64,000 nucleotides of DNA from Spongiibacter marinus (GTDB taxonomy: Bacteria; Pseudomonadota; Gammaproteobacteria; Pseudomonadales; Spongiibacteraceae), in the NCBI RefSeq assembly GCF_016906995.1, contig NZ_JAFBBD010000006.1, forward strand, positions 62,001-126,000. Direction: 5' to 3'. The position numbers and the translations under genes were made by a program. The notes beneath the pieces were generated by a model. The model did no database searches and was not told the DNA's origin. It was given only the letters and a program-made list of their open reading frames with translations. Positions 14,900 through 57,340 of this stretch are shown here, one piece after another (within the stretch, counting starts at the first letter, position 1; every line of letters starts with the position of its first letter).

Positions 14900-15000
14900 T
14901 CAGGCGCTGTTTGTTCGGCACTGTTTTTCGCGCTTTGTAGAGTAATGATTTACGGCCAGGCAGTTTTGCCAGCCCTATTGTCCCAACGCAGGATTGTTTC

Positions 15001-39767: not shown

Positions 39768-39984
39768 ATGCGGCCAGTTTTGATCAGTCTACTTGCCCAA
39801 TGTGATTTTCGCGTCGATGGCGCGCTTTAATCGCTCAATGAGCGAATAAAGTATATCCGCAGAGGGTGTTAGTGCCGAGCTAAGTGAAAATGAAAAGCAC
39901 CCAGTTGCGCTGGGATGACATTCCAGGTCGGGCTTTCAGTGCAGGTACGGGAGCAGAAGAGGGCGGTGAATACTGAGAAAGAAA
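39768..39984. other. Non-coding chromosomal flank of the prophage
   Basis: These 217 bases lie between the IS-like element and the att fragment. I see no reading frame, RNA or repeat worth calling. They should be the original sequence downstream of the tRNA gene whose 3' end was captured. Confidence 0.5.
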
Positions 39985-40012
39985 TGGCGGAGGGGCAGGG
40001 ATTCGAACCCTG
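39985..40012 (-). other. attL: Left attachment site (attL): 3' end of a tRNA, probably tRNA-Ser
   Basis: On the minus strand these 28 bases read as a T-arm (CAGGG, TTCGAAT, CCCTG), the acceptor 3' strand CCCCTCC, discriminator G and CCA. Only this 3' portion exists; the bases to the right do not fold into the rest of a tRNA. This is the classical footprint of a tyrosine-integrase phage in a tRNA gene. Discriminator G suggests serine. The intact tRNA should be at the other prophage end, past the window. Confidence 0.8.
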
Positions 40013-42076: not shown

Positions 42077-43824
42077 TAGAACAACTCCAATATGCTGTTA
42101 TTGCCCGCGCTCTCATGAAGCGGGGCGTTGTCGAGTGCGTGCATTAGCGCCCAAGCCAAATCGGCGTGGCCGCTTTCGTTGGTGCGGCTGGCTTGGTAGG
42201 TCATCTGTCCGCCGCCGGCGGTCATGGTCCGCTTGATCATCAGCATGGCGTGCACCATATCCGTCCAGCCGTTATCAAACTCAAGGCGACCATGGGAAAT
42301 AATGTCCTTGGTCTTGAGCACCATTTGGGCCTTGATGGCAGGGTTGTAGTCGTAACCCACGGCGCGCGGGAAAAAGCGGCGCACCATATCAAACACACCG
42401 GTGCCAATCGCGGTTTTATCGATGCCGATATGGGTAACGTTATAGATTTCGGTCAGCCGCTTGATGCGCTCAGCCTGGTCGACAAAGTCCATGCCCACCC
42501 AGTTGAGCTTATCCAAAATGCGGTGCTTACCGCCCGGTACCGGCGAGGGCGCCACCACTACGCAACTGGCGTTGTCACTGGTGCGCGACGGGTCGTAGCC
42601 TATCCACACGTCGCGGTTGCCGATCGGGCGGGGTGCCAGTGGCTTGAAGTCATCCCACGCCACCCAGCTGTCCACCATGCAGGCGGTCAGCTCGGTAAAG
42701 GAAAACACCGAGAAGGTGTCGTCCACGAACTGGCACATAAAGAGGTTTTCCATTTCCTCTGGGCTGTACTCCAGCCGCAGCTGCTCAATATCAAACAGGT
42801 CGCAGCCTTTGGCCTCGGCATCCAGCAAGGTAACGATCTGCCGCCATTGGCCGTCCTCACACATGCGGCCGGGCGCCAGCTTTTTGTGGGAAACATCCAA
42901 CTGGATTTGGTCTTCTTTTTTGCGACCGCGGTTAAACAGTGCGCCGGTCCAGAATGGGTAGGCCTCGTGATTGACACTGGATGGCGTAGAAAAATAGGTC
43001 TGGCGCCATTTCTTGTGAGCGGCCATGCCCGAGGCCACTTTGCGCAGATTCTGAAACCGCTGAATCCAGAAATACTCATCCACATACAAGTGGCCGTGGT
43101 AACTCTGGGCCGTGTTGCTATTGGTCGAAAGGAATATCAGCTCCGCGCCATTGGGCAACACAATCGGGTCGCCGGTCAGCTCAACATCGGCCCATTTCTT
43201 TGCCGCCTGCACAACGTAATTCCTGAACACATGAGCCTGAGCTTTTGAGGCCGAGATAAAAATCTGGTTGTCGCCGGTAGTGGCCGCATCTACCAGAGCC
43301 TCATTAGAAAAATAGTAAGTGGCACCGATTTGTCGGCTCTTAAGAATATTGCGAATGCGGTGGAGGGTCTTTTTGTGCAGCCATTCCTTTTGGTAGCCGA
43401 ATATCTCATCCATGAACCCCTCTTTAATGCGGTCCAGTGCTTCCGGCGAGATATCATTCTTGATTTTTTTATTGCTGCGTCGCTTTCCCCTGTTGCGATT
43501 GCGAACGTTTGGGTTTAAATCTGCCTCGTTGCCGCCATCGTCATAGCGACGAATGCGGGCTGTGCGCTCAAGGCTTTTGGTCAGCACCTCAATTTCTTTC
43601 AGGTCCTGATCCGTTTTTTCATCTTTCTTCAGCAGCTGGCACAGCCGGGCATCGATAGATTGCTCAACCCGCTGCACCACGGGCGCACTGTCCCAATCGT
43701 CCCGGCGCTTCCAGCTGTGCAGGGTGGCGCCAGGCACAGATAAACGCCGAGTAATCTCGGGAATGCGGTAGCCCTGCCAATAGAGCAACCGCGCTTCTGT
43801 TCTGTCATCTGAGGCCGTTTTCAT
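42076..43824 (-). CDS. P: Terminase large subunit (P2 GpP-like)
   Basis: This ATPase-nuclease packages DNA and cuts cos. The 582 residues compare with 590 for P2 P. An N-terminal helix-turn-helix (residues 18-40, IPEITRRLSVPGATLHSWKR) is followed by the ATPase with LKSRQIGATYYFS near residue 162 and LYVDEYFWI near residue 250 as Walker A and B. The C-terminal nuclease shows WIGYDPSRTSDNASCVVV. It is divergent from the scaffold gene O, with a shared regulatory dyad between them. Confidence 0.95.
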   Translation of the reverse strand: MKTASDDRTEARLLYWQGYRIPEITRRLSVPGATLHSWKRRDDWDSAPVVQRVEQSIDARLCQLLKKDEKTDQDLKEIEVLTKSLERTARIRRYDDGGNEADLNPNVRNRNRGKRRSNKKIKNDISPEALDRIKEGFMDEIFGYQKEWLHKKTLHRIRNILKSRQIGATYYFSNEALVDAATTGDNQIFISASKAQAHVFRNYVVQAAKKWADVELTGDPIVLPNGAELIFLSTNSNTAQSYHGHLYVDEYFWIQRFQNLRKVASGMAAHKKWRQTYFSTPSSVNHEAYPFWTGALFNRGRKKEDQIQLDVSHKKLAPGRMCEDGQWRQIVTLLDAEAKGCDLFDIEQLRLEYSPEEMENLFMCQFVDDTFSVFSFTELTACMVDSWVAWDDFKPLAPRPIGNRDVWIGYDPSRTSDNASCVVVAPSPVPGGKHRILDKLNWVGMDFVDQAERIKRLTEIYNVTHIGIDKTAIGTGVFDMVRRFFPRAVGYDYNPAIKAQMVLKTKDIISHGRLEFDNGWTDMVHAMLMIKRTMTAGGGQMTYQASRTNESGHADLAWALMHALDNAPLHESAGNNSILELF

Positions 43825-43871
43825 GCGCTCAGATTACGGGCAAACCTGCCACCTCCTTATGTAGCCAAGGT

Positions 43872-43888
43872 GTAAAGCCCTCGTTTAC
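43872..43888. promoter_or_regulatory. Late-promoter dyad, site A (divergent P / O)
   Basis: GTAAA-N7-TTTAC is a perfect dyad in the P-O gap, followed by CTCCCGC on the plus strand and ACC on the minus strand. Related dyads lie before gene V and gene FI, exactly the units that have late promoters in P2. Being symmetric, it could serve both P (56 bases away) and O. Confidence 0.65.
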
Positions 43889-43982
43889 TCCCGCACCGCC
43901 TTGGCGTGCCAAAACAATTCCGCAACGCTACCGCTCAACAGCTGATTTCACAGCCCAACAGCCACCAAAGCGGATGCAGAAC

Positions 43983-44840
43983 ATGAAATCGAAATTTTTC
44001 CGAGTTGCCGTTGAAGGCCAGACCACCGATGGCCGCGCCATTACCCGCGAACAGATTGTGGACATGGGCAGCACCTACAACCCTGAAAAATACGGCGCCC
44101 GTATTTGGCTGGAACACTTGCGGGGCCTATTCGCCGAAGGTCCATTCCCCGCCTTGGGTGACGTGGTAGAAGTCAAAGCAGAAGAAATCAAAGAGGGCGA
44201 GTTGAAAGGAAAAATGGCCCTGTACGCCGCCATCGATCCGACCAAAGAGCTTATTGCGATTAACGAAAAGCGCCAGAAAATCTACACCTCTATCGAGTTG
44301 GACCCCGACTTTGCTGGCAGCGGCCAGGCCTATATGTACGGGCTGGGCATTACCGACAGCCCCGCCAGTCTGGGCACTGAGGCCCTGAAATTCTCGGCGG
44401 AGAAACCGGCAGAAGAAAAGCTGTTGGCCAGCCGCAAAGCCCGCCCCGAGAACCTGTTCAGCGCAGCGATGGAAGTCGACATTGTGTTTGAAACCGAAAG
44501 TAAGCCGGACTCAAAAACCGACGAAAGCGGGCTCTTTGCCAAGATCAAAGACATGTTCAAAAAGCAGTCTCGTGACACACGCGAAGAGTTCAGCACTGCC
44601 ATCGATACCCAAAACGACGCCATCACCCTGGTAGCGGAAGAGGTAGTCAAGCTGTCCAGCAGCCTGGCCGATTTAGCCGATATCGTGAAGGCCGGTGGCG
44701 ACACCAGCGAACTGCAAACCCAATTCACCGCCCTGCAGGAAGAGCTGACCACGCTCAAAACTCAGCTTGGCAAAGAACACCAACACAGTCAGCGCCCGCC
44801 CGCCACCGGTGGTGACGGCGAAGTCCTGGCAGATTGTTAA
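43983..44840 (+). CDS. O: Capsid scaffolding protein and protease (P2 GpO-like)
   Basis: GpO is scaffold and serine protease in one, processing the capsid, scaffold and portal proteins. Start is set at MKSKFFRVAVEG (285 residues; P2 has 284), since the ATG nine bases earlier lacks a Shine-Dalgarno. The expected catalytic residues are present: Asp16 in QTTDGRA, His45 in IWLEHLRG and Ser103 in YTSIELD. The C-terminal helical scaffold domain follows, ending in GGDGEVLADC much like the end of P2 O. Confidence 0.95.
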   Translation: MKSKFFRVAVEGQTTDGRAITREQIVDMGSTYNPEKYGARIWLEHLRGLFAEGPFPALGDVVEVKAEEIKEGELKGKMALYAAIDPTKELIAINEKRQKIYTSIELDPDFAGSGQAYMYGLGITDSPASLGTEALKFSAEKPAEEKLLASRKARPENLFSAAMEVDIVFETESKPDSKTDESGLFAKIKDMFKKQSRDTREEFSTAIDTQNDAITLVAEEVVKLSSSLADLADIVKAGGDTSELQTQFTALQEELTTLKTQLGKEHQHSQRPPATGGDGEVLADC

Positions 44841-44900
44841 CCCAACAACCCCGAAAGCAACAGGCCGATAGCACAAAGACTTTGATTAGGAGCAACTGGC

Positions 44901-45944
44901 ATGCGTAAAGAAACCCGCGAAAAATACAACGGCTATTTGGCCCAGCAAGCCACGCTGAATGCCATTGCGCTTGAAGATATCAAGGGGGGAACCAAATTCA
45001 GTGTTGAGCCCTCAATTTCCCAAACCTTGGAAGACCGTATTCAGGAATCCTCTGCCTTCCTGCAAAGCATCAACGTGGTGCCGGTCACAGAGCAAGAGGG
45101 CGAGACCCTTGGCTTGGGCACCAGCTCTACCATCGCCGGGACTACTGATACGGATTCAAATGATCGCGCCACCACTGACCCCACCGGGCTGAACGCGTTT
45201 GGTTACCGTTGCGAGCAAACCAACTTTGATACCCACCTGAAATATTCCAAGCTGGATATGTGGGCAAAATTCCCCGATTTTCAAACCCGCATCCGCGATG
45301 CCATTCTTCGCCAGATCGCCCGCGACCGCCTGATGATCGGGTGGAACGGTACCAGCCGCGCTGCCACCTCTAACCGTGGCACCAACCCGCTGTTGCAAGA
45401 CGTGAATAAGGGCTGGATTCAGTATGTGCGCGACAATGACGCCGCCCGCATTATGAGCGAGGTCGAAGCCGCCTCTTCCGCTGTTAACGTCGGCACCAAC
45501 GCCGGTTACGACTACCAGAACCTGGACTCACTGGTGTTCGATGTCGTCGAAAACCTGCTGGACGAATGGCATGCCGAAGACACTGGCCTGGTGGCGATCA
45601 TGGGTCGCCAACTGCTGGCGGATAAATATTTCCCGCTGATCGACGGCAACAACGTGCCCACCGAGAAAATTGCCAGCGACATTATTATTTCCAGTAAGCG
45701 TGTTGGTGGTCTGCCAGCGGTACGGGTGCCTTTCTTCCCGGCGCGCAGCATCGTGGTGACCACCCTGGATAACCTTTCCATCTACTGGCAAGAAGGCACC
45801 CGCCGCCGCACCGTGGTGGACAACGCCAAGCGCGACCGCGTGGAAGACTACCAGTCCATCAACGAAGACTACGTGGTGGAAGACACCGGTGCCTTCGCTG
45901 CGGTCGAGAATATCAAACTTTGGAACGGCACTGCCTACGCGTAA
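44901..45944 (+). CDS. N: Major capsid protein (P2 GpN-like)
   Basis: The 347 residues (P2 N: 357) form the icosahedral shell. The N-terminus RKETREKYNGYLAQQATLN, the EDRIQESSAFLQSINVVPV segment, TQFDTHLKYSKLDMWA-type core (NFDTHLKYSKLDMWAKFPDF) and RDRLMIGWNGTSRA are characteristic of P2-family capsids. An AGGAG lies before the ATG. O should remove a short N-terminal part. Confidence 0.95.
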   Translation: MRKETREKYNGYLAQQATLNAIALEDIKGGTKFSVEPSISQTLEDRIQESSAFLQSINVVPVTEQEGETLGLGTSSTIAGTTDTDSNDRATTDPTGLNAFGYRCEQTNFDTHLKYSKLDMWAKFPDFQTRIRDAILRQIARDRLMIGWNGTSRAATSNRGTNPLLQDVNKGWIQYVRDNDAARIMSEVEAASSAVNVGTNAGYDYQNLDSLVFDVVENLLDEWHAEDTGLVAIMGRQLLADKYFPLIDGNNVPTEKIASDIIISSKRVGGLPAVRVPFFPARSIVVTTLDNLSIYWQEGTRRRTVVDNAKRDRVEDYQSINEDYVVEDTGAFAAVENIKLWNGTAYA

Positions 45945-45998
45945 GCGTGGGCAGCTGTCGATTAGCTAAACCACCAACCAGCAACAAACGGGGCGAAC

Positions 45999-46649
45999 AT
46001 GACACCAGCAGAGCGGCACCGCCAGCGCATGGCGGCCAAAGTCGAGGCCGAGAAGAACGCCGACCCAGCCAACACCCAAAGCCACACCGCCTACGAGCGG
46101 CAGTTGGTTTTGCTGGCTGAGCACAAGCGTCAGCTCAAAAGCATTCAAAGCATCGAGAAGAAAATCGAGCTTAAAAAGCAGCTTATTCCTGAGTACGCAG
46201 CCTACATTGCTGGGGTTCTGGAAGCTGATGCCGGTGGCGCAAATGAAGTGGTCACCACGCTTTTGCTCTGGTGCATCGACGCCGGCTATTACGACGGTGC
46301 GTTGGAGCTGGCTGAATACTGCCTGCGTCACAACCTGCCCACGCCAGACGCTCACCAGCGCACCATGGGCACCGTGATCGCTGAAGAGTTTGCCGACTAC
46401 AGCCTGAAAGGGGCAGAGGGCATCACGCTGAACATGCTGCAGCAAGTTCAGGAGTTGACCAAAGAGCAAGACATGCCCGACCAGGTGCGCGCCAAGCTGC
46501 ACAAGGCCATCGGCTACTTGCTGCGGGAGACAGACAAACCCGCTGCCTTGATCGAGTTGCAACGCGCCCTTGAGCTGAATACCGCCGCTGGCGTGAAAAA
46601 AGACATTGAAAAACTGGAGCGGGAAATTAAAGCCGCTGCCAGTCAATAA
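45999..46649 (+). CDS. M: Terminase small subunit (P2 GpM-like)
   Basis: M recognises cos and hands the DNA to P. The 216 residues show MTPAERHRQRMAAKVEAEK with an Arg/Lys-rich N-terminus, a central helical DAGYYDGALELAEYCLRHNL, and a TPR-like C-terminal region (AIGYLLRETDKPAALIELQRAL). Position after N is that of P2. Confidence 0.93.
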   Translation: MTPAERHRQRMAAKVEAEKNADPANTQSHTAYERQLVLLAEHKRQLKSIQSIEKKIELKKQLIPEYAAYIAGVLEADAGGANEVVTTLLLWCIDAGYYDGALELAEYCLRHNLPTPDAHQRTMGTVIAEEFADYSLKGAEGITLNMLQQVQELTKEQDMPDQVRAKLHKAIGYLLRETDKPAALIELQRALELNTAAGVKKDIEKLEREIKAAASQ

Positions 46650-46755
46650 GAGGGTCGCCCCGCCGACGGAAGACCCGGCTGGAGGTTTTGAAATTGGTCA
46701 AAGCTGAAAGCCGGGCGCTTCTTAACGCAAAGGGCACATCAACATAGGTGAGATA

Positions 46756-47238
46756 ATGGGCAGTTTTATCCCCAGTGGCCAAGCATCCCCCAGCAACGAG
46801 CCCGACCTGCCCAACATCCCCTTTTTTCCACCGGTTAGCCCAACGCTGTTCCGCGATGCCATGGACGTAGACACCACCGTGTCTACCGAGCGCATCAGCA
46901 TGGCGCTGCAGCTCTCCCTCATGGAAGTCAATAACAGCCTGGCCGTGTGGTCTGCCGCGCAAATAGAACTGGGCAATGCCACCTTGGCCGCCACCAAAGA
47001 CACCGTCTATGGCGAGGGCGAAGCGGCTGTTAACCATCAGGAAAAGCTCTACCAGTCTGCCGTGTTCCACCTGGCCAAAGCCAGGGTGGTAGAGCACATG
47101 CGCGACTTTGACAGCACCGCCGCCGGTCACAACAAAGCCGATGAGCTCAGCCAACCCATTGACGACTTCAAACGCGAGGCTCGCCGCAATGTGCGGGCGA
47201 TTATGGGCCAGCCTGGCACCGTGGTGGAGCTGATCTGA
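46756..47238 (+). CDS. L: Head completion/stabilisation protein (P2 GpL-like)
   Basis: L closes the filled head and joins it to the tail. The protein has 160 residues. The segment NIPFFPPVSPTLFRDAMDVD and the helical RISMALQLSLMEVNNSLAVW with KLYQSAVFHLAKARVVEHMRDFDST (shown in part) follow the P2 L pattern. The stop overlaps the start of X by one base. Confidence 0.9.
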   Translation: MGSFIPSGQASPSNEPDLPNIPFFPPVSPTLFRDAMDVDTTVSTERISMALQLSLMEVNNSLAVWSAAQIELGNATLAATKDTVYGEGEAAVNHQEKLYQSAVFHLAKARVVEHMRDFDSTAAGHNKADELSQPIDDFKREARRNVRAIMGQPGTVVELI

Positions 47239-47444
47239 TGCGCCAGATCCGCACCTTGCAGGGCGACACCGCCGACCTGATTTGCTACCGGGAGCTGGGC
47301 CGCACCGCTGGGGTTACCGAGCAGCTGCTTGAGCTCAACCCACGGCTGGCCGACTACGGCCACATACTGCCCGCCGGGCTGCTGGTGAACCTGCCAGATA
47401 AGCCCGTGCAGGAAAAATCCAAAACCCTCAACGTGTGGGACTAA
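47238..47444 (+). CDS. X: Tail protein X (P2 GpX-like)
   Basis: This short protein of 68 residues has a LysM-like fold: GDTADLICYRELGRT, then LELNPRLADYGHILPAGL and the terminal LNVWD. In P2 X is an essential tail component at the baseplate. It is coupled to L by a one-base overlap. Confidence 0.92.
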   Translation: MRQIRTLQGDTADLICYRELGRTAGVTEQLLELNPRLADYGHILPAGLLVNLPDKPVQEKSKTLNVWD

Positions 47445-47446
47445 CC

Positions 47447-47914
47447 ATGAACGTAAAGCAGCTGTCTGAGCATATTGTTAAACCGGTACTCATGGCCCTG
47501 GGCATGTTCAGCGGCGAGGCGTTTCTGCTGCTGCTCGGGACTGCGGCCCAAGAGAGCGGGGGTTTTAATTTTATTCGCCAATTGGGCAGCGGACCCGCCC
47601 TGGGGCTGTGGCAAATGGAGCCCGCCACCCATGACGATATTGTCGAAAACTACCTGCGTTACCGGCCGGAATTGGCCAACAAGGTGCTGGAGCTGGCAGG
47701 CGTAACCGAATTTCACAGCCGCTATTTACTGATCAATTTGGCCTACGCCTGCGCCTTTGCCCGCTTGCACTATCGCCGGGTAAAAGAGGCCATCCCGCTG
47801 TCACTGGAGGGCCAGGCCCATTATTGGAAAGACCATTACAACACCCACCAGGGCAAGGGCCACCCGCAGGAATTTATCGACAACTACCAGCGATACGTAG
47901 CGGGGCAGGTGTGA
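47447..47914 (+). CDS. Phage endolysin (muramidase/transglycosylase-like)
   Basis: The 155-residue protein is in the lysis slot. GTAAQESGGFNFIRQLGSGP carries the likely catalytic Glu, and ALGLWQMEPATHDDI resembles lytic transglycosylases (GLWQMxP). No signal peptide is visible, so it depends on the holin for export. It differs from the P2 K lysozyme and is therefore a module swap. The stop overlaps the holin start. Confidence 0.8.
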   Translation: MNVKQLSEHIVKPVLMALGMFSGEAFLLLLGTAAQESGGFNFIRQLGSGPALGLWQMEPATHDDIVENYLRYRPELANKVLELAGVTEFHSRYLLINLAYACAFARLHYRRVKEAIPLSLEGQAHYWKDHYNTHQGKGHPQEFIDNYQRYVAGQV

Positions 47915-48411
47915 TGGACTGGAAGAGCGTAGGCCAGCGTGTTGCCAAAGCCGCGCCCCTGCTGGGAACCGTACTGGGAGGACCTGCTGGCGGTGCTTTT
48001 GGCGCTGTCGTTGCTGGCGCTCTCGGCGTGGATAATCAGCCTGATGCTGTGGCGGCTGCTATGGCGTCCCCTGAAGCGGTGGTTAAGCTCAAGCAGATTG
48101 AGTCGGATCATCGCGCCGAACTTGAGCAGATAGCCGCCAATGTCACATTGGCTGAACTCAAAAACCAGGAGCATGCCCGGGAGATTCACAAGCATTCGCC
48201 CATGCCGGCCATTGTTACCGGTGCGCTAACGGCCATGGTTGCAGTGGCGGGCTGGCTGCTGTTCCACGTTGAGATCCCGGCAGCCAACCGCGATGTGGCC
48301 TATATGCTGTTTGGGCAGCTGCTGGGCTTATGGGCTGCATCCGTTACGTATTGGGTAGGCACCACGCGCTCCAGCGCCGAAAAAACCCGTTTACTGAAGT
48401 CCGGGGCCTGA
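47914..48411 (+). CDS. Holin, 3-TM type
   Basis: The 165 residues contain an N-terminal Gly/Ala-rich hydrophobic segment (residues 14-38), a charged helical middle (EAVVKLKQIESDHRAELEQI) and two C-terminal helices (ALTAMVAVAGWLLFHVEI and LFGQLLGLWAASVTYWVGTT). This matches the 3-TM holin type found in gene-transfer-agent-like modules. It follows the endolysin with a one-base overlap. The role is inferred from the layout and hydrophobic profile. Confidence 0.8.
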   Translation: MDWKSVGQRVAKAAPLLGTVLGGPAGGAFGAVVAGALGVDNQPDAVAAAMASPEAVVKLKQIESDHRAELEQIAANVTLAELKNQEHAREIHKHSPMPAIVTGALTAMVAVAGWLLFHVEIPAANRDVAYMLFGQLLGLWAASVTYWVGTTRSSAEKTRLLKSGA

Positions 48412-48464
48412 CGCTGCGGCGTTGCGGTTGAATTATTGCCACCAGAAACAGTCAAGGATTAAGA

Positions 48465-48797
48465 ATGGCTGACGAATCACTGCACGTCGTTTGGAAGCGC
48501 TTAGATGAACACCGGCAAGCCATTAGCGACCTGGAAAAAAACGACGTGCGCCACGACACCCGGATTGCTGACATGAACACCAACATGAATGCAAAAATCG
48601 ACGGACTGGCCGCGCAGGTGGCCAGCTTTATGAGTGAGTCTAAGGCGTCTAACGATGCCACAGCGCATAAACTGGATACGGTCATTGCCAACCAGAATCA
48701 GAAATCCGGCGCCATTAGGGCGGCCGGTTATATCGTCGGTCTGATCTTGGCGATAACACCCATTGTGGTGGCCGTGGTCGCGGTCATGAAGAACTAG
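48465..48797 (+). CDS. Small coiled-coil, tail-anchored membrane protein of the lysis module
   Basis: The 110 residues have an amphipathic coiled-coil part (VVWKRLDEHRQAISDLEKN, DTRIADMNTNMNAKIDGLA) and a single C-terminal membrane helix (AAGYIVGLILAITPIVVAVV). This is an XhlA-like layout, so it may be a lysis accessory. No Rz/Rz1-type pair is seen. Confidence 0.7.
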   Translation: MADESLHVVWKRLDEHRQAISDLEKNDVRHDTRIADMNTNMNAKIDGLAAQVASFMSESKASNDATAHKLDTVIANQNQKSGAIRAAGYIVGLILAITPIVVAVVAVMKN

Positions 48798-48805
48798 GCA
48801 ACCCT

Positions 48806-49273
48806 ATGGAATTACTCGCCGCGCTGCGCAAGCACATCCTCACCAGTCCGCTTGATATCAAGGCCGACAACCTGGTCACCTTTGCTAAAGACGGCGAAAT
48901 CGTTAGCCACCAGGGCGACACCAACCAACATTTTGCCATCCGCTACGACGCCAACATCATTGTGGTGGACTACGGCAAAGCCCCTGACATGCTGTTTTAC
49001 ATTGTGCTCAACTGGCTAAAGGCCAACAATGCCAACCACCAGGCCAACGCCATCCGATTTAATGCCGATATCATCGACCACAAAAAAACCGATGTAGAAA
49101 TCATCGTCCAGCTCGAGGAGCTGGTGGGCGCCAACGAAGTCGAGGGCGGTATCCAGCTGGTACATAACGGCGTTGCGCCCATTGATGTTGTGCCCCTTAG
49201 TGCGGGGGAGTGGGAGCTTTACATCCCGCCAGATCCTGACCCCGTGGCCGACTGGATTGCCCAGGGCGAATAG
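48806..49273 (+). CDS. R: Tail completion protein R (P2 GpR-like)
   Basis: This 155-residue protein starts MELLAALRKHILTSPLDIKAD and contains the family segment HFAIRYDANIIVVDYGKAPDM and a C-terminal WELYIPPDPDPVADW. R and S act in tail completion in P2. The S gene overlaps its stop by one base with a GTG start. Confidence 0.87.
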   Translation: MELLAALRKHILTSPLDIKADNLVTFAKDGEIVSHQGDTNQHFAIRYDANIIVVDYGKAPDMLFYIVLNWLKANNANHQANAIRFNADIIDHKKTDVEIIVQLEELVGANEVEGGIQLVHNGVAPIDVVPLSAGEWELYIPPDPDPVADWIAQGE

Positions 49274-49728
49274 TGGCCGCCGAATATACCGACGCCACCC
49301 TCAACGACTGGCTCAGCGCCACCCTGGCGCCATTGTCACCGGCCAGCCGCCGCCAGCTTATGCGCGATATCGCCCTGTATTTACGCCAGTCCCAAAGCCA
49401 GCGCATTGCCGCCCAGCAAAACCCCGATGGCACCGCCTTTGAGCCCCGCAAAAGCCGTCTGCAGAAGCCCGGCATTCGTCGCCGTGCCATGTTTGCCCGC
49501 ATCCGCACCCGCAAGCACCTGCGCTACCGGGCCAGCGCCGATGAGGCCGCCGTGGGCTTCCGGGGCCGGGTGGCGGCCATTGCCGAGGTGCACCAACACG
49601 GCCTTATTGCCGAGGTAGAGCAGGGCGGGCCGCTGGTGAAATACGCCCAGCGGGAGCTGCTGGGTCTATCAGACACCGACATGAGCCACATCGACACCCT
49701 GGTTAGCAAGCACCTTTCTGGGCGGTAA
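49273..49728 (+). CDS. S: Tail completion / virion morphogenesis protein S (P2 GpS-like)
   Basis: The 151 residues start with GTG and contain RRQLMRDIALYLRQSQSQRIAA and NPDGTAFEPRKSR, followed by FRGRVAAIAEVHQHGL and KYAQRELLGLSDTD, all typical of GpS. It overlaps R by one base. The 95 bases to V hold the site B dyad. Confidence 0.9.
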   Translation: MAAEYTDATLNDWLSATLAPLSPASRRQLMRDIALYLRQSQSQRIAAQQNPDGTAFEPRKSRLQKPGIRRRAMFARIRTRKHLRYRASADEAAVGFRGRVAAIAEVHQHGLIAEVEQGGPLVKYAQRELLGLSDTDMSHIDTLVSKHLSGR

Positions 49729-49758
49729 AAGCCACCCCATAAAATACCCCGCCAAGCC

Positions 49759-49775
49759 GTAAACCCGCCCGTTAC
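49759..49775 (+). promoter_or_regulatory. Late-promoter dyad, site B (upstream of V)
   Basis: GTAAA-N7-GTTAC (one mismatch from a perfect dyad) lies 49 bases before the V start and is followed by ACC. It matches site A in arms and spacing. A TAAAT-type -10 candidate is near 49802. Confidence 0.55.
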
Positions 49776-49823
49776 ACCGCCGCAGCCACTACGCGCGCGC
49801 ATAAATCATCAACAATCACAGCC

Positions 49824-50465
49824 ATGACCGAACTCGAGCTCATCAGCGACCTGCAGCGCCGCATCGCCAATTTGATCACCCTGGGCATTGTGCACTCGGT
49901 GGACGGCATCTTTTGCCGGGTAGCGATTGGCGGTGATGCCAACAACCTCACCCCGCCCATCAAGTGGCTGGCAAACCGTGCTGGTGATGAAAAGAGCTGG
50001 TCCCAGCTCGACGTAGGAGAGCAGGTCATGCTGCTGTGCCCCTCGGGCGACCCCGGCAACGCCGTGGCGCTGCCCGGGCTTTACAGCGCCGCCAGGCCTG
50101 CCCCCAGCACTGACCCTGATGAAACCGTGAGTGTGCTGCCCGATGGCGCCGTGTTCAGCTACCACCACGGCAACCAGCATTTATCCGTCACGCTGCCAGA
50201 AGGTGCGACCACCGAACTGATTACCGACGGCGGCCTGCACATTGTGGGCGACACCGAAATCGACGGTAACGTGACCATTAACGGCACCACCCACAGCACC
50301 GGCGCTATCACCACCGACGACGACATGGCCGCCGCTGGCAGCGTCCATGCCGACGGCGACGTGTCCGACGGCACCCGCTCAATGGGCGCCGACCGCGATA
50401 TTTACAACACCCACACTCACCCCAATGGCGTAATGAACACCGAAGCGCCGAGCCAGCAGCAATGA
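49824..50465 (+). CDS. V: Baseplate assembly protein V (spike)
   Basis: The membrane-piercing spike of the contractile tail. The 213 residues have an N-terminal OB-fold-like domain (ANLITLGIVHSVDG, then GDEKSWSQLDVGEQVMLLCP), a beta-helical stem with repeats (TEIDGNVTINGTTHSTGAIT) and the C-terminal YNTHTHPNG whose His residues bind an iron ion at the tip in P2 V. It overlaps W by four bases. Confidence 0.93.
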   Translation: MTELELISDLQRRIANLITLGIVHSVDGIFCRVAIGGDANNLTPPIKWLANRAGDEKSWSQLDVGEQVMLLCPSGDPGNAVALPGLYSAARPAPSTDPDETVSVLPDGAVFSYHHGNQHLSVTLPEGATTELITDGGLHIVGDTEIDGNVTINGTTHSTGAITTDDDMAAAGSVHADGDVSDGTRSMGADRDIYNTHTHPNGVMNTEAPSQQQ

Positions 50466-50791
50466 ACGGCGTAAACGCAAAAACCGGCAAAGCGCTGAGC
50501 GGGGCAGAGCACCTGCGCCAATCCATTGCCGACATTCTCACCACCCCGGTGGGCTCCCGGGTAATGCGGCGGGACTACGGCAGCCTGGTCCCGTTGTTGA
50601 TCGACCAGCCCCTCAACCCCGCGACCAAGCTGCGGCTGTTTGCCGCCACGGCCCACGCCATTGCCAAGTGGGAACCGCGCTTTACGCTCACCAAGACCCG
50701 CTTTGGCCAGGCCGATACCGGCAAATTTGAGCTGCACGTTGAGGGCATTGATGAATCGGGCCAGCAAGTGCTGACGGGAGTGCCGCTGTAA
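50462..50791 (+). CDS. W: Baseplate assembly protein W (P2 GpW-like)
   Basis: The 109-residue wedge protein of the baseplate is a gp25-like lysozyme-fold protein. It contains LRQSIADILTTPVGSRVMRR, then DYGSLVPLLIDQPLN, the hallmark stretch of the family. It overlaps J by one base. Confidence 0.95.
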   Translation: MNGVNAKTGKALSGAEHLRQSIADILTTPVGSRVMRRDYGSLVPLLIDQPLNPATKLRLFAATAHAIAKWEPRFTLTKTRFGQADTGKFELHVEGIDESGQQVLTGVPL

Positions 50792-51693
50792 TGACCACCA
50801 CATTTTCCGCCATCGACCTGTCGCAGTTGCCACCGCCCAATGTGGTCCAGCCCCTGGACTACGAAACCATCCTGGCAGAAATGATTGCCGACATGCGCGC
50901 CCGCCACCCGGACTTTGACGCCAATGTGGAATCAGACCCGGCCTATAAAATTCTGGAGGTGGCCGCTGCCCGTGAGCTGAACATCCGCCAGCGGGTTAAC
51001 GACGGCGCCCGGGCGATTATGCTGGCCTATGCCACCGGCTCAGATCTGGACCAGCTCGCCGCCAACAAAGAACTCACCCGTTTTGTGCTCGACCCCGGCA
51101 ACCCCAACGCCATCCCCCCTGTGCCGCCCACCTACGAGTCTGACGCCGACCTCCGCCGCCGGGTGCAACTGGCTGACGAAGCTCTGACCACGGCCGGCAG
51201 TCGCGGCAGCTACGTGGCGCTCACACTGAACGCCGACGCCAGTGTTAAAGACGCCGACGCCGAAAGCCCAACCCCCGGCGAGGTGACCGTGTATGTGCTC
51301 AGCCGCACGGGTGACGGCACTGCCGACAGCGGCTTGATTGAGACGGTAGAAGGGGCGCTGAATGACGAAGACAAGCGGCCCATGACCGATAACGTCACTG
51401 TGTTGTCGGCCACCATCGCCACCTACGCCATCGAGGCCGTGCTCACCATCTACCCCGGCCCCGATGCCATGGTAGTGCAGGCCAACGCCATTGCCGCCGC
51501 CCAGGCCTACGCCGACAGCATCCATAAGCTGGGCTACGACATTAAATTGTCCGCCGTGTATGCCGCCTTGCATCAACCTGGAGTGCAGTCAGTTGATCTG
51601 GTCCAGCCCGCCGCCGATGTCGCCATCGACACCGGCGAGGCCGCGTATTGCACCGCCTTTGATATCACCGTGGAGGGCGAAGCCGGTGTCTGA
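50791..51693 (+). CDS. J: Baseplate assembly protein J (P2 GpJ-like)
   Basis: The 300-residue wedge protein shows IDLSQLPPPNVVQPLDYETI, RQRVNDGARAIMLAYATGSDL, DLRRRVQLADEALTTAGSRG and the C-terminal GYDIKLSAVYAALHQPGVQS. All segments match P2 J (302 residues). It overlaps gene I by eight bases. Confidence 0.95.
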   Translation: MTTTFSAIDLSQLPPPNVVQPLDYETILAEMIADMRARHPDFDANVESDPAYKILEVAAARELNIRQRVNDGARAIMLAYATGSDLDQLAANKELTRFVLDPGNPNAIPPVPPTYESDADLRRRVQLADEALTTAGSRGSYVALTLNADASVKDADAESPTPGEVTVYVLSRTGDGTADSGLIETVEGALNDEDKRPMTDNVTVLSATIATYAIEAVLTIYPGPDAMVVQANAIAAAQAYADSIHKLGYDIKLSAVYAALHQPGVQSVDLVQPAADVAIDTGEAAYCTAFDITVEGEAGV

Positions 51694-52273
51694 TACCAGC
51701 CTGCTGCCCAAAAACGCCAGCGACTATGAGCTGGCGCTGGAAGCCGTCACCGCCCGGATCGGTGAAGTGCCGGTGGTCATGCGGGAAGTCTGGAACCCCG
51801 ATACCTGCCCCTATGCGCTCTTGCCCTGGCTGGCCAGCGCCGCCTCGGTAGATGCCTGGGATGCCAACTGGACCGACGCCCAAAAGCGCGCCGCTATCAA
51901 GGCCTCACTGGCCGTGCACCGCCGCAAAGGCAGCATTGGCGCCGTCAAGCGCGCCCTCAATGCCATTGGCCTTGGGGTGAAAGTGCAGGAGTGGTTCAAC
52001 CAAGACCCACCCGGCGACCCTTATACATTCAACCTGATTTTTGAAACCGACCAGACCGGCATACGCTTTGAAGATATCGACAAAATTCTGGCCGTGGTCA
52101 ACAGCGCCAAAAGCCTGCGCTCACACCTGAACGAAATCATCCCCATTGTGATCAGCCGCAACCAGCCTGCGTTCGCCACCGTCAGCAACAGCGGCCATGA
52201 AGTCACCGTTAATCAATACGCCGACCCCATCGTTGTCATCAACGAGCTGGTTGTGCCCGTCACCGAGGCCTGA
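51686..52273 (+). CDS. I: Tail protein I (P2 GpI-like)
   Basis: The 195 residues start at a GTG inside the end of J. They contain LLPKNASDYELALEAVTARI, NPDTCPYALLPWLASAASVD, then HRRKGSIGAVKRALNAIGL and QDPPGDPYTFNLIFE, the GpI pattern of the baseplate and tail-fibre attachment. The reading frame is open further upstream inside J, but GTG at 51686 gives the family N-terminus. The tail-spike ATG follows after one base. Confidence 0.93.
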   Translation: MSDTSLLPKNASDYELALEAVTARIGEVPVVMREVWNPDTCPYALLPWLASAASVDAWDANWTDAQKRAAIKASLAVHRRKGSIGAVKRALNAIGLGVKVQEWFNQDPPGDPYTFNLIFETDQTGIRFEDIDKILAVVNSAKSLRSHLNEIIPIVISRNQPAFATVSNSGHEVTVNQYADPIVVINELVVPVTEA

Positions 52274-52274
52274 A

Positions 52275-54773
52275 ATGGAAGTTAAAAACTACTTCGCCTT
52301 CACCGCTGAAAATAAGCCCATCCGGTTCTGCACGGCTTACCTCTACGAAGCGGGCACCAGCAACCTGGTAACCGGGCTGACCGATAAAAACGGCAACCCC
52401 ATCGACAATCCCTTTCAGGCGGATAAAGATGGATTGGTGCAGTTTGCAGGCCCTAATGGCGTGTATGACCTGCGGTTTAAAAGCAGCCTGCGGGACTATC
52501 GGATACGGGTGAGTATTGTTGATACGCCAGCGCTTCTGGCGGCAGCAGCAACGGCGGCCGAGGCGGGCAGCCAAGCGGTAGAGAGCGCGGCATCAGCCAA
52601 GCGGTCAGAAGAAATAGCCCTTGATGCAAACCAGATTTATGACTCTACGGCCGATGCTTTGAGCAACGGGGTAAAAACGGTGGTAATCACAGCGCCGGGC
52701 TCTGGTGGTACAGACGGGCAATACATTGTGCCCGTTACGGGCACCACAGGGAGCGGTGGCCAGCTATTGGTTGTGGTGTCGGGGAATGCGTTGGCGGAGG
52801 CTTACGTTCTTACGCGAGGCACGAACTACACTGGACCGTTGAGCGCGGATATTGATACTGCAGCGGGGACCGCCGGGGCAGAAGTGTCGCTGACTTTGGC
52901 CGCGAACCGGGGTGTTGGTCAGCGGTTTTACATTCCCAGTGCTAGCGCTACCGGGTTTTATGATCGATACAAAGTGAATGCCGGCCCGGTGGCAGTGCTC
53001 GAAAAGACGCTGCCGGCGCAGGACTTAATCGACGATATTGTCGCCACGATCAACGATCGAGACGATGTTGACAGTCTGCTATCGATCAGCGATTTTGCCG
53101 GTCTCGTCGGGTTTTTAGTGCGACAGAACGGGTCAATATTGTCGCCGAGTTACAATATCGAGTCCGATGATGGTGGTGCGGGTGTGGTATTTGCCGACAA
53201 ATTCGGATTCGTCGGGTTTGAATTTTCACCAACTTTTGGCGCAGTTGCTCCAAAGTTTTCGGGGCTCGATTTTGACATTGAGTCGTCGCGCCATGTTGAT
53301 TTTGCAGTGCTCGATGGTTTTGGCTTTGTACTGTTTACGCCATCCGGATTTTCTGCGCCACCGAGCGACCCCAGCCAGCCAGCGGAAAACTATGAGGCTC
53401 GGAACGCGCGTAATTTAGCACTGAGCGCTGCCGTTGCGCGATCGTACAACGCATCGACTGCGTCGCTCAGCGCAAAATACAACCATTTTGTGTATTACGG
53501 GCAGTCTCTCTGTACGGGGTTTGAGGGTTGGCCTGCGCTATCAAAAACCGCTTATAGCGATTTGGGCAATCTAATGCTCGGCAATTCGACGCGACCGGAC
53601 GACAAATTTAGCGCGGATTTTACGCCCGTTGGCGTATCAACACTGCAGCCGCTCAAAGCGGTCGTGCAGAGTAATGATGGATCAACAATATTGTCTGATG
53701 CTGCCGTGGCTGCGCTGACGCCTGGCGCCGGCAACGAGGGCGAATCCCCGGATGTTGGGGCAATTAATTTCTCCCGCCGCCAGTTTTTGGATTATCACTC
53801 ATTGTCACAGGACGGAGAGCGGCGTTTTGTTGTCACTAACTGCGGGGTGGCGGGCCGGACAATTGCGGAGCTAAGCAAGGGGGCTGATCCCGAAATCTAT
53901 AACCGCACGGTCGATGCATGCACCGCAGTCAAATCTATCGCAGACAGCGAGTCTGCCGCGTATCAAATCCCAGCCATTATTTGGATGCAGGGTGAGTACG
54001 ATTACATATTTGATACCCCGCAAGCGACTTACAAATCAGATTTGGTTGCGCTTAGAAATGACATGATCGACGATCTGTGCAGTGGTATTGCGGGGCAGTC
54101 CAGGCCGCCCGCGTTTATCACTTATCAAACCGGTGCGGGTTATACGAAAGATGATCAAAATCTTGCGATCGGGATGGCGCAACTGGAGTTGTCAGAGGAG
54201 CAGGATAACTGGTACCTGGCGACACCGGTGTATCCATACACCGACAAAGGTGGGCATCTGGACCCAAACGGCTATCGCTGGGTTGCAATGCAGCTGGGCA
54301 AAGTCATCCATCGCGTCTGCACCCTGCGTCAAGGCTGGCGGCCACTGTCTCCGAACGGGCTCACAAGAGACGGTCGCGTAATTGTCATTGATTTTCACGT
54401 GCCTGAGCCGCCGCTTGTTTTTGATGCGCCCTATGTCGTGTTGTCGGCGACTAACTATGCAACAAAGGGGTTTCGGGTGCTGGTCAATAATGTATCTGCA
54501 TCAATTCTGTCGGTGTCTCTGCTGCATGACACGATGGTGCAGATAGAGCTGGTTAACGACGTGCCAGAGGGCGCAACCGTTGCTGTGCAATATGCGCCGC
54601 AGGCGGGCCACGGCGGCAATGGCAATTTGCGTGACAGCGATCCGACGATCGCGTCGGAAAACTACGAGTATTCAGCAGGTAATGGCCAGTACGCCGGGGC
54701 CAACATCCCGGCATTGGTCGACAAACCGTATCCGCTACACAACTGGTGTGTGGCATTTCATCTAGCTATTTGA
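52275..54773 (+). CDS. Tail spike with C-terminal SGNH/sialate-esterase-like domain
   Basis: The 832-residue protein starts with a short virion-attachment domain (MEVKNYFAFTAENKPIRF; residues 1-85), an Ala-rich helical linker (85-125) and a beta-rich middle. The C-terminal half reads as an SGNH hydrolase: GQS at 409-411 (HFVYYGQSLCTGFEGWP), WMQGEYDY at 570-577 and GGHLDPNGYRWVAMQL near 659-675, supplying Ser, the block III residues and His. It probably removes acyl groups from surface polysaccharide during adsorption. It is not a homologue of P2 H and is inserted between I and the collar-domain fibre gene. The base composition looks lower in G+C than its flanks. Confidence 0.82.
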   Translation: MEVKNYFAFTAENKPIRFCTAYLYEAGTSNLVTGLTDKNGNPIDNPFQADKDGLVQFAGPNGVYDLRFKSSLRDYRIRVSIVDTPALLAAAATAAEAGSQAVESAASAKRSEEIALDANQIYDSTADALSNGVKTVVITAPGSGGTDGQYIVPVTGTTGSGGQLLVVVSGNALAEAYVLTRGTNYTGPLSADIDTAAGTAGAEVSLTLAANRGVGQRFYIPSASATGFYDRYKVNAGPVAVLEKTLPAQDLIDDIVATINDRDDVDSLLSISDFAGLVGFLVRQNGSILSPSYNIESDDGGAGVVFADKFGFVGFEFSPTFGAVAPKFSGLDFDIESSRHVDFAVLDGFGFVLFTPSGFSAPPSDPSQPAENYEARNARNLALSAAVARSYNASTASLSAKYNHFVYYGQSLCTGFEGWPALSKTAYSDLGNLMLGNSTRPDDKFSADFTPVGVSTLQPLKAVVQSNDGSTILSDAAVAALTPGAGNEGESPDVGAINFSRRQFLDYHSLSQDGERRFVVTNCGVAGRTIAELSKGADPEIYNRTVDACTAVKSIADSESAAYQIPAIIWMQGEYDYIFDTPQATYKSDLVALRNDMIDDLCSGIAGQSRPPAFITYQTGAGYTKDDQNLAIGMAQLELSEEQDNWYLATPVYPYTDKGGHLDPNGYRWVAMQLGKVIHRVCTLRQGWRPLSPNGLTRDGRVIVIDFHVPEPPLVFDAPYVVLSATNYATKGFRVLVNNVSASILSVSLLHDTMVQIELVNDVPEGATVAVQYAPQAGHGGNGNLRDSDPTIASENYEYSAGNGQYAGANIPALVDKPYPLHNWCVAFHLAI

Positions 54774-54783
54774 GGGCGCAATT

Positions 54784-55539
54784 ATGGGTTTAGTTCTGCG
54801 AGTAAAGAATGCGGATTTTTCTGCTAGCGCGGTTGCAGTCGTTATGCCGGTCATGGACGACCTTGCGTATTGCAATTTTTTTGGCGGCAACGAGGCCAAT
54901 TTGGTGCGTAATCTGGCACCAAACGGCGAGCTGTCAATCGTGAGTGGTGCACCGCAGGTAAATGATAACAGTGTCGTGTTGGGCGGTGGCTATGGCTACA
55001 TACAAACGCAAGTGGATGACGACTCCGAGGTGTCAATTATCACCGTTGTGCGGGCGTTAGAAGATGTTGGCGGTGCAATCGTTGTCGGCAACACGTCATC
55101 GGCTAGCCAAGTGCACGCGGGCACGACACAGGGCACCGCGCTGTATTTTACGCAGGAGACCGCTGGTGACGGCGCGCTGGCTGCGCGATTTAACAGCGCG
55201 CAAACGGATGGATCGACCTCATCTGGCGTCATCGCGTCGTTGATTGGCGGAGTTACTGAGGATCAGTTTTGCTGCTTGGCGGCCAGCCGCAAGGCATCGA
55301 CAAAGGCCCGCACAGTAAAAAACCTGAGCACAGCCGCGCAGAATGTCGTCAACGGCTCGCTAGATCCAGATTACGGCGAGCAGTTCCGGATCGGCAGGGG
55401 ATACAACCTGTCAACATTCCCGGATGACGTTGAAGTCGCGTTTGTTGCAATTTATAAGCGCGCGCTGAGTGATGCCGAGTTTTCTGCGATGTATGACTAT
55501 CTTAAAGGTCTTTTCTCTTCAAAAAGCATTGAGATCTAG
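54784..55539 (+). CDS. LamG-like (concanavalin fold) tail-associated protein
   Basis: This 251-residue protein lies 10 bases after the tail spike. It reads as a concanavalin/LamG beta-sandwich: NDNSVVLGGGYGYIQTQVDD, VSIITVVRALEDVGGAIVVG, a central TALYFTQETAGDGALAARFN, and the closing VEVAFVAIYKRALSDAEFSA. Such domains bind glycans. It probably helps the spike in attachment. It shares the different base composition of the spike, so the two may be one cassette. Confidence 0.72.
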   Translation: MGLVLRVKNADFSASAVAVVMPVMDDLAYCNFFGGNEANLVRNLAPNGELSIVSGAPQVNDNSVVLGGGYGYIQTQVDDDSEVSIITVVRALEDVGGAIVVGNTSSASQVHAGTTQGTALYFTQETAGDGALAARFNSAQTDGSTSSGVIASLIGGVTEDQFCCLAASRKASTKARTVKNLSTAAQNVVNGSLDPDYGEQFRIGRGYNLSTFPDDVEVAFVAIYKRALSDAEFSAMYDYLKGLFSSKSIEI

Positions 55540-55549
55540 GTGGCCGTCC

Positions 55550-56944
55550 ATGCCAAACTTCAAAACCATCCACACCGCCTACGCCCTAGAGCGCCTTGCC
55601 GCCGCTGAAATCAGCGGCGAGCCCATCAACCTGGTGGAAATCGCCGTGGGCGATGGCAACGGCGTTGATGTCTACCCCGACGAAGGCCAATCGACGCTGG
55701 TTCGGGAGCGTTTCCGTGATGTGGTCAACCGGGTATATCAACACCCGGAAGACAACACCCGCTACACCGCTGAGCTGATTATTCCCGCCACGGAGGGCGG
55801 GTTTACCCTGCGGGAAATTGGGGTTTTTGACGACCAGGGCGGGCTGTTTGTGGTCGGAAATCTGCCGGAAACCTACAAGCCCACCGACGCCGATGGGGCG
55901 TTTTCAGACACCGTGGTCCGCGTTGAATTTGCCGTAAGCAATGCGGCGGTGATCACCCTGCAGGTCGACCCCAACGTGGCGGTGGCTACGCAAACGTGGA
56001 TCATCAATAACATCAAAATGGCTACGCTCACACCGGGCGGCACCACCGGCCAGGTGCTGCGCAAGCAGTCCAACACCGACGGCGATGTGGACTGGGAAGA
56101 CCCTGACGTGGCCAATATCACCGTGGACACTATTGAGGAAGAACAGACCCTGGCCGACAGCCAAACCCAGGTGGATTTGGCTGTGGTCAGCACCCGGGGG
56201 CTGGCGGTGTACATTGATGGCCAGCGCCTTTACCCCGGGGCAGGGGCCGACCAGTGGCAGAAAGCGGCGGCGCCCAATGATGAAACCCGGATCATCCTGG
56301 GCCAAAGCTACACCGCCGGCACAAAGATCATCTGCGCCCAGAACGAGCCCACCGGCAGCGCGCCTGCGCCACTGGAAAAGAGCAAAAATCTGTCTGATGT
56401 GGCCAACGTGGCAACCGCCCGGGCAAACCTCAGCGTATACAGCAAGGCTGAGGCAGACCAGAAGGCACCCCCGGGGCTGGTAGGCATGTTTGCCCGCAAC
56501 TCTGCACCCACGGGCTGGCTCAAGGCCAACGGCGCGCTGGTGAGTCGCACAGCCTATGCCAATCTCTTTGCTGCAATCGGCACCACCTTTGGCAATGGCG
56601 ATGGCTTTAACACCTTCGCGCTGCCGGATCTGCGCGGGGAGTTTATGCGCGGCTGGGATGACAGCCGCGGCATTGATTCCGGCCGGGCTTTTGGCTCAGC
56701 CCAAGGCTCAGATAACAAGGCCCACACCCACTTTTCGTTTACGTCAGACACCGGCTCAGTCAACCCCCAAAGCAGCCCCATTACCGCCAGCAACAGCCCA
56801 GTGCCAAAGAGTGCGACCGGGGGGGAGGCCAACGCCCATATTGCCGGTAAAGCGGCCACGCCATCGGTGGGGCTCACATCGTCATCGGGCGGCACTGAGG
56901 CGCGCCCGCGCAATATTGCCATGCTGGCCTGCATCAAGTATTAA
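55550..56944 (+). CDS. Tail fibre protein with collar domain (GpH-like)
   Basis: The 464 residues begin MPNFKTIHTAYALERLAAAE, the DUF3751-type N-terminus of P2-family fibre proteins (GEPINLVEIAVGDGNG and TLREIGVFDDQGGLFVVGNL). The C-terminus is a phage tail collar domain (APTGWLKANGALVSRTAYANLF, then GNGDGFNTFALPDLRGEFMR and RPRNIAMLACIKY). It should hold the receptor-binding tip. The base composition returns to that of the other tail genes. Confidence 0.9.
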   Translation: MPNFKTIHTAYALERLAAAEISGEPINLVEIAVGDGNGVDVYPDEGQSTLVRERFRDVVNRVYQHPEDNTRYTAELIIPATEGGFTLREIGVFDDQGGLFVVGNLPETYKPTDADGAFSDTVVRVEFAVSNAAVITLQVDPNVAVATQTWIINNIKMATLTPGGTTGQVLRKQSNTDGDVDWEDPDVANITVDTIEEEQTLADSQTQVDLAVVSTRGLAVYIDGQRLYPGAGADQWQKAAAPNDETRIILGQSYTAGTKIICAQNEPTGSAPAPLEKSKNLSDVANVATARANLSVYSKAEADQKAPPGLVGMFARNSAPTGWLKANGALVSRTAYANLFAAIGTTFGNGDGFNTFALPDLRGEFMRGWDDSRGIDSGRAFGSAQGSDNKAHTHFSFTSDTGSVNPQSSPITASNSPVPKSATGGEANAHIAGKAATPSVGLTSSSGGTEARPRNIAMLACIKY

Positions 56945-56955
56945 AGGAGCTGCGC

Positions 56956-57228
56956 ATGATCGTTTATCAACACGACGCCGCAGGGCTGTATCAGGGCGAG
57001 ACCGAAGCCGACGAATCACCGCTGGAAACCGGCAAGTTTTTATTGCCCGCTCGATGCACCGAAACACCGCCGCCGCCCGAGGTGCCCGAGGGCAAATGGC
57101 CGCGCTGGAATGGTCACAGCTGGGATCTGGTCAACCGGCCCGCCCAGTCAGAACCCGAAGACCCGGTGGCCAAGCTGCAGGCCTTTTTGCAGCAAAACCC
57201 CGACGTGGCGCAGCTCATTTCCCAATAG
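56956..57228 (+). CDS. Tail fibre assembly chaperone-like protein (GpG-like)
   Basis: The 90-residue protein shows the typical short chaperone layout: a start MIVYQHDAAGLYQGETEAD, a Pro run TETPPPPEVPEGKWPRW with WNGHSWDLV, and an ending DPVAKLQAFLQQNPDVAQL. It lies 11 bases after the fibre gene, with AAGGAG before the ATG, in the place of P2 G, which is longer. The family call is by layout. Confidence 0.72.
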   Translation: MIVYQHDAAGLYQGETEADESPLETGKFLLPARCTETPPPPEVPEGKWPRWNGHSWDLVNRPAQSEPEDPVAKLQAFLQQNPDVAQLISQ

Positions 57229-57247
57229 CCCACCATCTTACCCCGCT

Positions 57248-57264
57248 GTATAGCGGGGGTTTAC
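57248..57264 (+). promoter_or_regulatory. Late-promoter dyad, site C (upstream of FI)
   Basis: GTATA-N7-TTTAC (one mismatch) is followed by TCCTGC, very like site A (TTTACTCCCGC). It lies 77 bases before the FI start. It also overlaps a G+C-rich hairpin (CCCCGC, TGTATA, GCGGGG; 57241-57258) with a short TTT, which may end the preceding transcript. Confidence 0.6.
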
Positions 57265-57340
57265 TCCTGCCACTGCTTTAACGCGCATGGCAACCAGCGA
57301 AAAATGCGGGTAACGCAATCATTAATCGCTGGAGACCACC

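Follow-up and report, generated by a model that had tools for sequence, protein, structure and literature searches.

Introduction

Phages P2 and 186 transcribe their late genes under the activators Ogr and B, respectively, from promoters that in P2 are named pP, pO, pV and pF. According to the P2 record, a single activator site is common to pO and pP, and the centres of the annotated sites lie 55-58 bp from the marked transcription starts. TGT-N12-ACA is a loose label for such sites, since its strict form has no match in the stretches searched near the activator sites annotated in P2 and 186. The part of PMC5694545 that deals with phiRSY1 and phiRSA1 gives their late promoter motif as TGTTGT-N13-ACAACA and mentions early genes that come after a possible ogr homologue. 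For Smp131, the passage of PMC3931495 on its late promoters describes one site (nt 4381-4398) as TGT-N12-ACA-like and as serving both PP' and PO'. The open-licence literature, in the excerpts available, yielded no survey of Ogr sites across P2-like phages.

The DNA analysed here, a 64,000-nucleotide (64-kb) stretch of Spongiibacter marinus referred to below as the window, carries part of a P2-like prophage with the same late operons as P2 and 186. Dyads of the type GTAAA-N7-TTTAC lie 5' of its P/Q, O, V and FI operons, one of them being common to P and O, as in the P2 record and in the part of the Smp131 report just cited. Each stands at a fixed distance from a -10-like hexamer (+44 in four of four promoters, the starts being predicted), with the site centres about 56 bp from the predicted starts, and the prophage encodes an Ogr/Delta C4 zinc-finger protein. 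The core letters, however, differ from those of the P2 sites, which were not picked by our symmetry scan; by eye, pV of P2 reads TTGT-N11-ACAA with CAATCT at +44. The window dyads do not fit TGT-N12-ACA, and because of this the system is a variant, not a plain member, of the Ogr-activated P2-type late promoters. TGT-N13-ACA fits each dyad at 5 of 6 positions, and the O sites of two relatives, by eye, at only 4 of 6. This inner spacing is the same as in the motif reported for phiRSY1 and phiRSA1; compared with that motif as given in the cited part of the report, the window dyads lack the outer TGT/ACA triplets and have added TTT/AAA inner arms. As to gene order, ogr follows D in P2, whereas the Ogr-family gene considered below, Ogr1, is in the early region. 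A scan of Smp131 gave no dyad obeying the -10 rule in the V, FI and P directions.

Results and Discussion

Layout of the prophage

The prophage extends over about 38 kb, as judged from a 31-bp direct repeat that brackets it (39982-40012 and 77994-78024, in window coordinates continued along contig C6). The window stops inside it, and the remaining 14 kb or so lie past the window end. The repeat resembles the end of a tRNA gene; ARAGORN detected no tRNA in the stretches L018-L020. Q and P are read leftward, and the operons that begin with O, V and FI rightward. The assignments of P/O, V and FI, made in a preliminary description from the letters and their translations, were borne out by Pfam and PHROGs matches (Table 1). 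From the P start to the O start there are 149 bp, and the gap between the end of the preceding ORF and V is 95 bp, that before FI 112 bp.

Beyond the window end are repressor-like, Cro-like, CII-like, Ogr/Delta and DNA polymerase clamp-like genes, followed further on by a primase, a second Ogr-like gene and an integrase. The clamp-like protein (68128-69201) resembles the DNA polymerase III beta clamp (PF00712, PF02767; phrog_947, 156 bits). Part of an 858-aa protein of the tail-fibre region (52197-54773) resembles a carbohydrate esterase (PF03629, 25.8 bits, cut-off 24.8). Long palindromes of the form CAGTTG-N3/4-TCA-N-TGA-N3/4-CAACTG make up an array at window coordinates 74817-75034 and 75585-75611, in which the inner bases vary and are mostly still complementary; one copy lies within the gene adjoining the second Ogr-like gene. 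The array is present in the related genome G060, and its pattern was unmatched in the stretches fetched from G058.

Table 1. Late genes, dyads, -10-like hexamers and Ogr-family genes of the prophage, in window coordinates. Promoters are predicted.
Feature	Coordinates	Strand	Remarks
P, terminase large subunit	42076..43824	-	PF03237, PF17289, PF06056
O, capsid scaffold/protease	43974..44840	+	PF05929
V, baseplate assembly protein	49824..50465	+	PF04717, phrog_9992
FI, tail sheath	57341..58846	+	PF04984, PF17482
Dyad GTAAA-N7-TTTAC, perfect, GTAAAGCCCTCGTTTAC	43872..43888	.	Common to divergent P (leftward) and O (rightward) promoters
Dyad GTAAA-N7-GTTAC, one mismatch, GTAAACCCGCCCGTTAC	49759..49775	+	V promoter
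Dyad GTATA-N7-TTTAC, one mismatch, GTATAGCGGGGGTTTAC	57248..57264	+	FI promoter
-10-like hexamer TAATCT, P promoter	43831..43836	-	+44 from dyad centre; P ATG at +56
-10-like hexamer AACGCT, O promoter	43924..43929	+	+44 from dyad centre
-10-like hexamer AACAAT, V promoter	49811..49816	+	+44 from dyad centre; V ATG at +57
-10-like hexamer AAAAAT, FI promoter	57300..57305	+	+44 from dyad centre
Ogr1, Ogr/Delta family	67533-67757, continued past window end (C6:129533-129757)		PF04606, 58 bits (cut-off 26.3); phrog_603, 79 bits
Ogr2, second Ogr-like zinc-finger gene	75865-76176, past window end		phrog_603, 26.7 bits

Three dyads and their conservation

Direct reading confirmed the three dyads reported in the preliminary description, with their coordinates, their mismatch counts and the bases that trail them (TCCCGC at P/O, ACCGC at V and TCCTGC at FI). 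Within the 64 kb, GTAWA-N7-KTTAC occurs at these three sites only (four strand hits; shuffles gave a mean of 0.20 and at the largest 2). When one mismatch to GTAAA-N7-TTTAC was allowed, the window contained five sites against 1.18 expected, the two additional ones, at 14937 and 27569, both being outside the prophage. With the looser pattern GT[AG][AT][AG]-N7-[GT]TTAC the window total stayed at these three dyads, and the following 29 kb, a stretch that takes in the remainder of the prophage, contained no match. Frequent matches elsewhere in the phage had been named beforehand as an argument against a common function; there are none in the prophage DNA read. The genome-wide search for GTAWA-N7-KTTAC that had also been proposed did recover the three dyads, among 16 sites, and showed no enrichment: the reversed control had 26 strand hits and the pattern itself 24. 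Because there is no genome-wide excess over this control, the letters alone prove little: the pattern by itself is weak, and the case is made by where the dyads lie, by their conservation and by the hexamer downstream of them.

Dyads in all three gaps are kept in four distinct related prophages, namely UViG_2524614733 (judged from its identities to be the phage of genome G060), UViG_2788500315, UViG_3300045738_001973 and that of genome G058. The dyads, this conservation, the spacing to the -10 hexamer and the presence of Ogr1 are all observed in silico. At the O site both arms, GTAAA and TTTAC, are constant in the window and the four relatives, whereas the spacer, GCCCTCG in the window, reads CCGCCTG, CCGCCTC, CACGCTC and GCCCTTG in the relatives. 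The comparison with related prophages, suggested in the preliminary description, thus came out in favour of the dyads. The V and FI sites add little to it, since the V dyad is unchanged in three of the four relatives and the FI dyad in two; the most distant relative has GTAAG-N7-TTTAC at V and GTAGA-N7-TTTAC at FI. By eye, a fifth record (L109), whose terminase is 80% identical, has GTAAA-N7-CTTAC in the P/O gap.

The FI dyad overlaps a hairpin, CCCCGCT-GTAT-AGCGGGG (57241-57258, -14.1 kcal/mol), which may end the V operon; TTTT follows the FI-gap hairpin in the relative L035. This overlap is an argument for reading the dyads as RNA hairpins that terminate the preceding operons rather than as protein sites. 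We regard that explanation as extremely improbable: the FI hairpin, whose stem is distinct from the dyad, reaches a z-score of only -1.57, shuffles fold at least as well as the V and P/O dyad stretches (z 0.58 and 0.29), and the P/O dyad is located between divergent genes, where no operon ends.

A -10-like hexamer 44 bp from the dyad centre

The dyads were picked blind to the -10 element, which we represented by its two best-kept bases as NANNNT. The distance from the dyad centre to the first base of such a hexamer is exactly 44 bp in all four window promoters (P, O, V and FI; Table 1). In a first set of 17 phages with 62 promoters, NANNNT stood at +44 in 46; counting +45 as well raised this to 54, and every other offset from 14 to 89 had it in 0 to 7. 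To arrive at this set, 19 of 26 phages passed the dyad scan; L251, L257 and L273, which passed by one or two points with sites at unlike positions, were judged spurious and left out, L244 was removed as a near-duplicate of the window, and L266 and L267 were added despite failing the scan. The FI site was omitted in six of the 17 phages, its match being bad or weak. L249 (G009) was mis-centred at this stage and in the terminase correlation given below; its corrected centre was used in the preset-rule analysis and in the O-protein correlation.

Since the first 17 phages were partly chosen by dyad score, we repeated the analysis with a preset rule on 32 P2-like phages with O and V starts (the window, 25 viral records and six named phages); 11 terminase relatives (G028, G030-G032, G034-G040) went unscored, the stretch fetched containing no V or FI. 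The dyad shared by the O and V gaps scored above all 30 shuffles in 17 of the 32, and in these 17 phages NANNNT fell at +44 or +45 in 47 of 51 O, V and P promoters (40 at +44, 9 at +45, 2 at both). At other offsets the average was 1.57 of the 51 promoters and the highest count 6. The 15 phages that did not pass had it at +44 in 9 of 45, all nine coming from the window, the Mannheimia phage and L266. With two gaps, the O/V pair of the window only equals its best shuffle (14 vs 14); when FI is added, the window passes the scan (25 vs 23 for the best shuffle).

Seven named phages were scanned. In KS5, D14A and Mannheimia 2256AP1 the hexamer is at +44 in 12 of 12 promoters, FI included, and P2, 186, ENT90 and Smp131 did not follow the +44 frame under the dyad scan. 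A long symmetric dyad is not universal, because no convincing one was obtained from P2, 186, ENT90 and 9 of the 25 viral records under the preset rule, or from Smp131 in the scan of named phages.

The preliminary description had proposed that the dyads are activator sites of late promoters before P/O, V and FI, and this role is very probable, being well supported by their position, by the relatives and by the hexamer at +44. A dyad far 5' of the -10 element could in principle bind any dimeric regulator, including a host or phage repressor that silences the late genes in the lysogen, and the host genome does contain 13 more GTAWA-N7-KTTAC matches. Such operators are nevertheless very unlikely. 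The pattern counts in the host genome do not exceed the control, a centre about 56 bp upstream is the position of an activator, as in P2, and does not overlap the promoter, and other phages keep the spacing with unrelated letters, as is expected of phage-specific activators.

Predicted leaderless P and V messages

The ATG of V lies +54 to +58 from the dyad centre and that of P +55 to +59, each in 17 of 17 phages (transcription starts predicted). An ATG between +50 and +65 was seen for O in 1 of 17 phages and for FI in 0 of 11. The P and V messages look leaderless, because their start codons fall where transcription should begin. For V there is a precedent in the P2 record, where the transcription start is marked at the V start codon (10308), and a passage of PMC4633059 names phage P2 among the few leaderless cases. 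P of P2, on the other hand, starts at 3016 with its codon at 2993, a 23-base leader, compared with an ATG at +56 in the window prophage. The positions of the start codons suggest that both P and V messages are leaderless in this phage group, P unlike in P2 itself.

The candidate activator

Ogr1 is a protein of 74 aa with the motif CPHC...CKNPVC, encoded in the early region of the same prophage, 3.5 kb past the window end. From the divergence of the dyads from the P2 type, the preliminary description had concluded that a different activator is at work. This is half right. A different kind of activator is not supported, since the prophage encodes a protein of the Ogr/Delta family (PF04606); the activator is very probably a member of that family that prefers other DNA letters. 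PF04606 matched in 36 of 40 related viral records, 31 of them over the cut-off, and some of the weak matches are short and unlike Ogr. A strong dyad occurs in the record G014 (L254), although its 30.8 kb, perhaps a fragment, contain no PF04606 match, and the Ogr model search found none in the Mannheimia phage.

We favour, with a probability of nearly nine in ten, the reading in which the late activator that binds the dyads is Ogr1, the Ogr-family protein of the prophage itself. Among relatives with the same dyads, Ogr1 is 100% identical in G060 and 92.5% in G058, and it is 82% identical in the most distant relative; it was not seen in G003, a truncated record. Ogr2 might bind the dyads instead, as it is encoded in the same prophage, is 36% identical to Ogr1, keeps the four cysteines and matches phrog_603. 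This is unlikely. The Ogr2 alleles of own/G060 and of G058/G003 are only 41-45% identical, though the dyads are the same; in addition, Ogr2 has no Pfam family at E 0.001. Ogr1 is the better candidate, since it is near-identical (92.5-100% in own, G060 and G058) across relatives among which Ogr2 occurs in unlike alleles. In G058 and G003 the Ogr2 gene is located to the left of Q.

If Ogr1 is the binding protein, as we infer together with the start sites in this phage, it would bind an inverted repeat whose centre lies about 56 bp 5' of the transcription start, and would bring the polymerase of the host to a weak -10 element beginning 44 bp from that centre. The divergent P and O promoters would share one symmetric dyad, V and FI would have one dyad each, and the P and V messages would start at, or a few bases from, the start codon. 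The geometry of this model and the leaderless V are by analogy with established work on P2, the starts being those marked in the P2 record.

Many dyads in one frame

The dyads of the other phages differ widely in their letters. Those shared by the O, V and FI gaps, with scores of 29-30 of 30, are GTTCTG-N11-CAGAAC, GTTCTAT-N9-ATAGAAC, GTTGTG-N11-CACAAC, TTGTGCC-N7-GGCACAA and GTGTCGC-N8-GCGACAC; those shared by the O and V gaps, at 18 of 18, are GATGAT-N9-ATCATC, GTTAGA-N9-TCTAAC, GTTACA-N9-TGTAAC and GTTGGA-N10-TCCAAC, the last of which, from L265, does not obey the -10 rule. Many of them fit a loose GT(T)...(A)AC frame, and the window group keeps GT..AC at the place of TGT-N13-ACA. To judge from these sequences, many lineages may each have a signal of their own, with its distance to the transcription start unchanged. 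On balance we lean towards a radiation of the P2-like phages into many private late-promoter codes, in which the specificities of the Ogr family would have diverged from lineage to lineage and the promoter frame (44 bp between dyad centre and -10, leaderless P and V) would have stayed fixed nearly to the base.

Many private dyads in one rigid frame are the result that deserves follow-up. The combination of a shared dyad, NANNNT at +44 and an ATG of P and V at about +56 is a sequence rule by which late promoters can be found in P2-like prophages whose site letters are unknown. About a dozen different dyads, most of them paired with a short Ogr protein, also form a set on which a recognition code for this zinc finger could be tested. 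If private codes are real, they would insulate co-resident prophages from each other and would govern which helpers a given P4-like satellite is able to switch on.

Each private dyad is likely to match the Ogr of its own phage, a match that Mantel tests do not separate from kinship. Dyad similarity correlated with Ogr similarity (r 0.526) and more strongly with kinship of the O protein (r 0.633, partial 0.454). With O taken into account, Ogr retained a partial correlation of 0.203 (p 0.036) over 17 phages and of 0.163 (p 0.124) once near-duplicates were removed; with the terminase as the measure of kinship it was -0.109 (p 0.81). Among the records whose Ogr is nearest to that of the window, a relative of O was present in 16 of 18 and a relative of V in 1 of 6, and the two-sided dyad rule, applied to 17 loci of such records, gave one weak match. 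One case, G061, points toward dyad-Ogr matching. Its Ogr, 54% identical, is the nearest outside the close group, and its O, at 35%, is the most distant of 16. The O and V gaps of G061 alike contain TGTAAA-N7-TCTACA, with NANNNT at +44 and +45 for V and P but not for O, and this dyad is the nearest to that of the window outside the close group, by a slim margin over KS5 (distance 0.34 vs 0.36).
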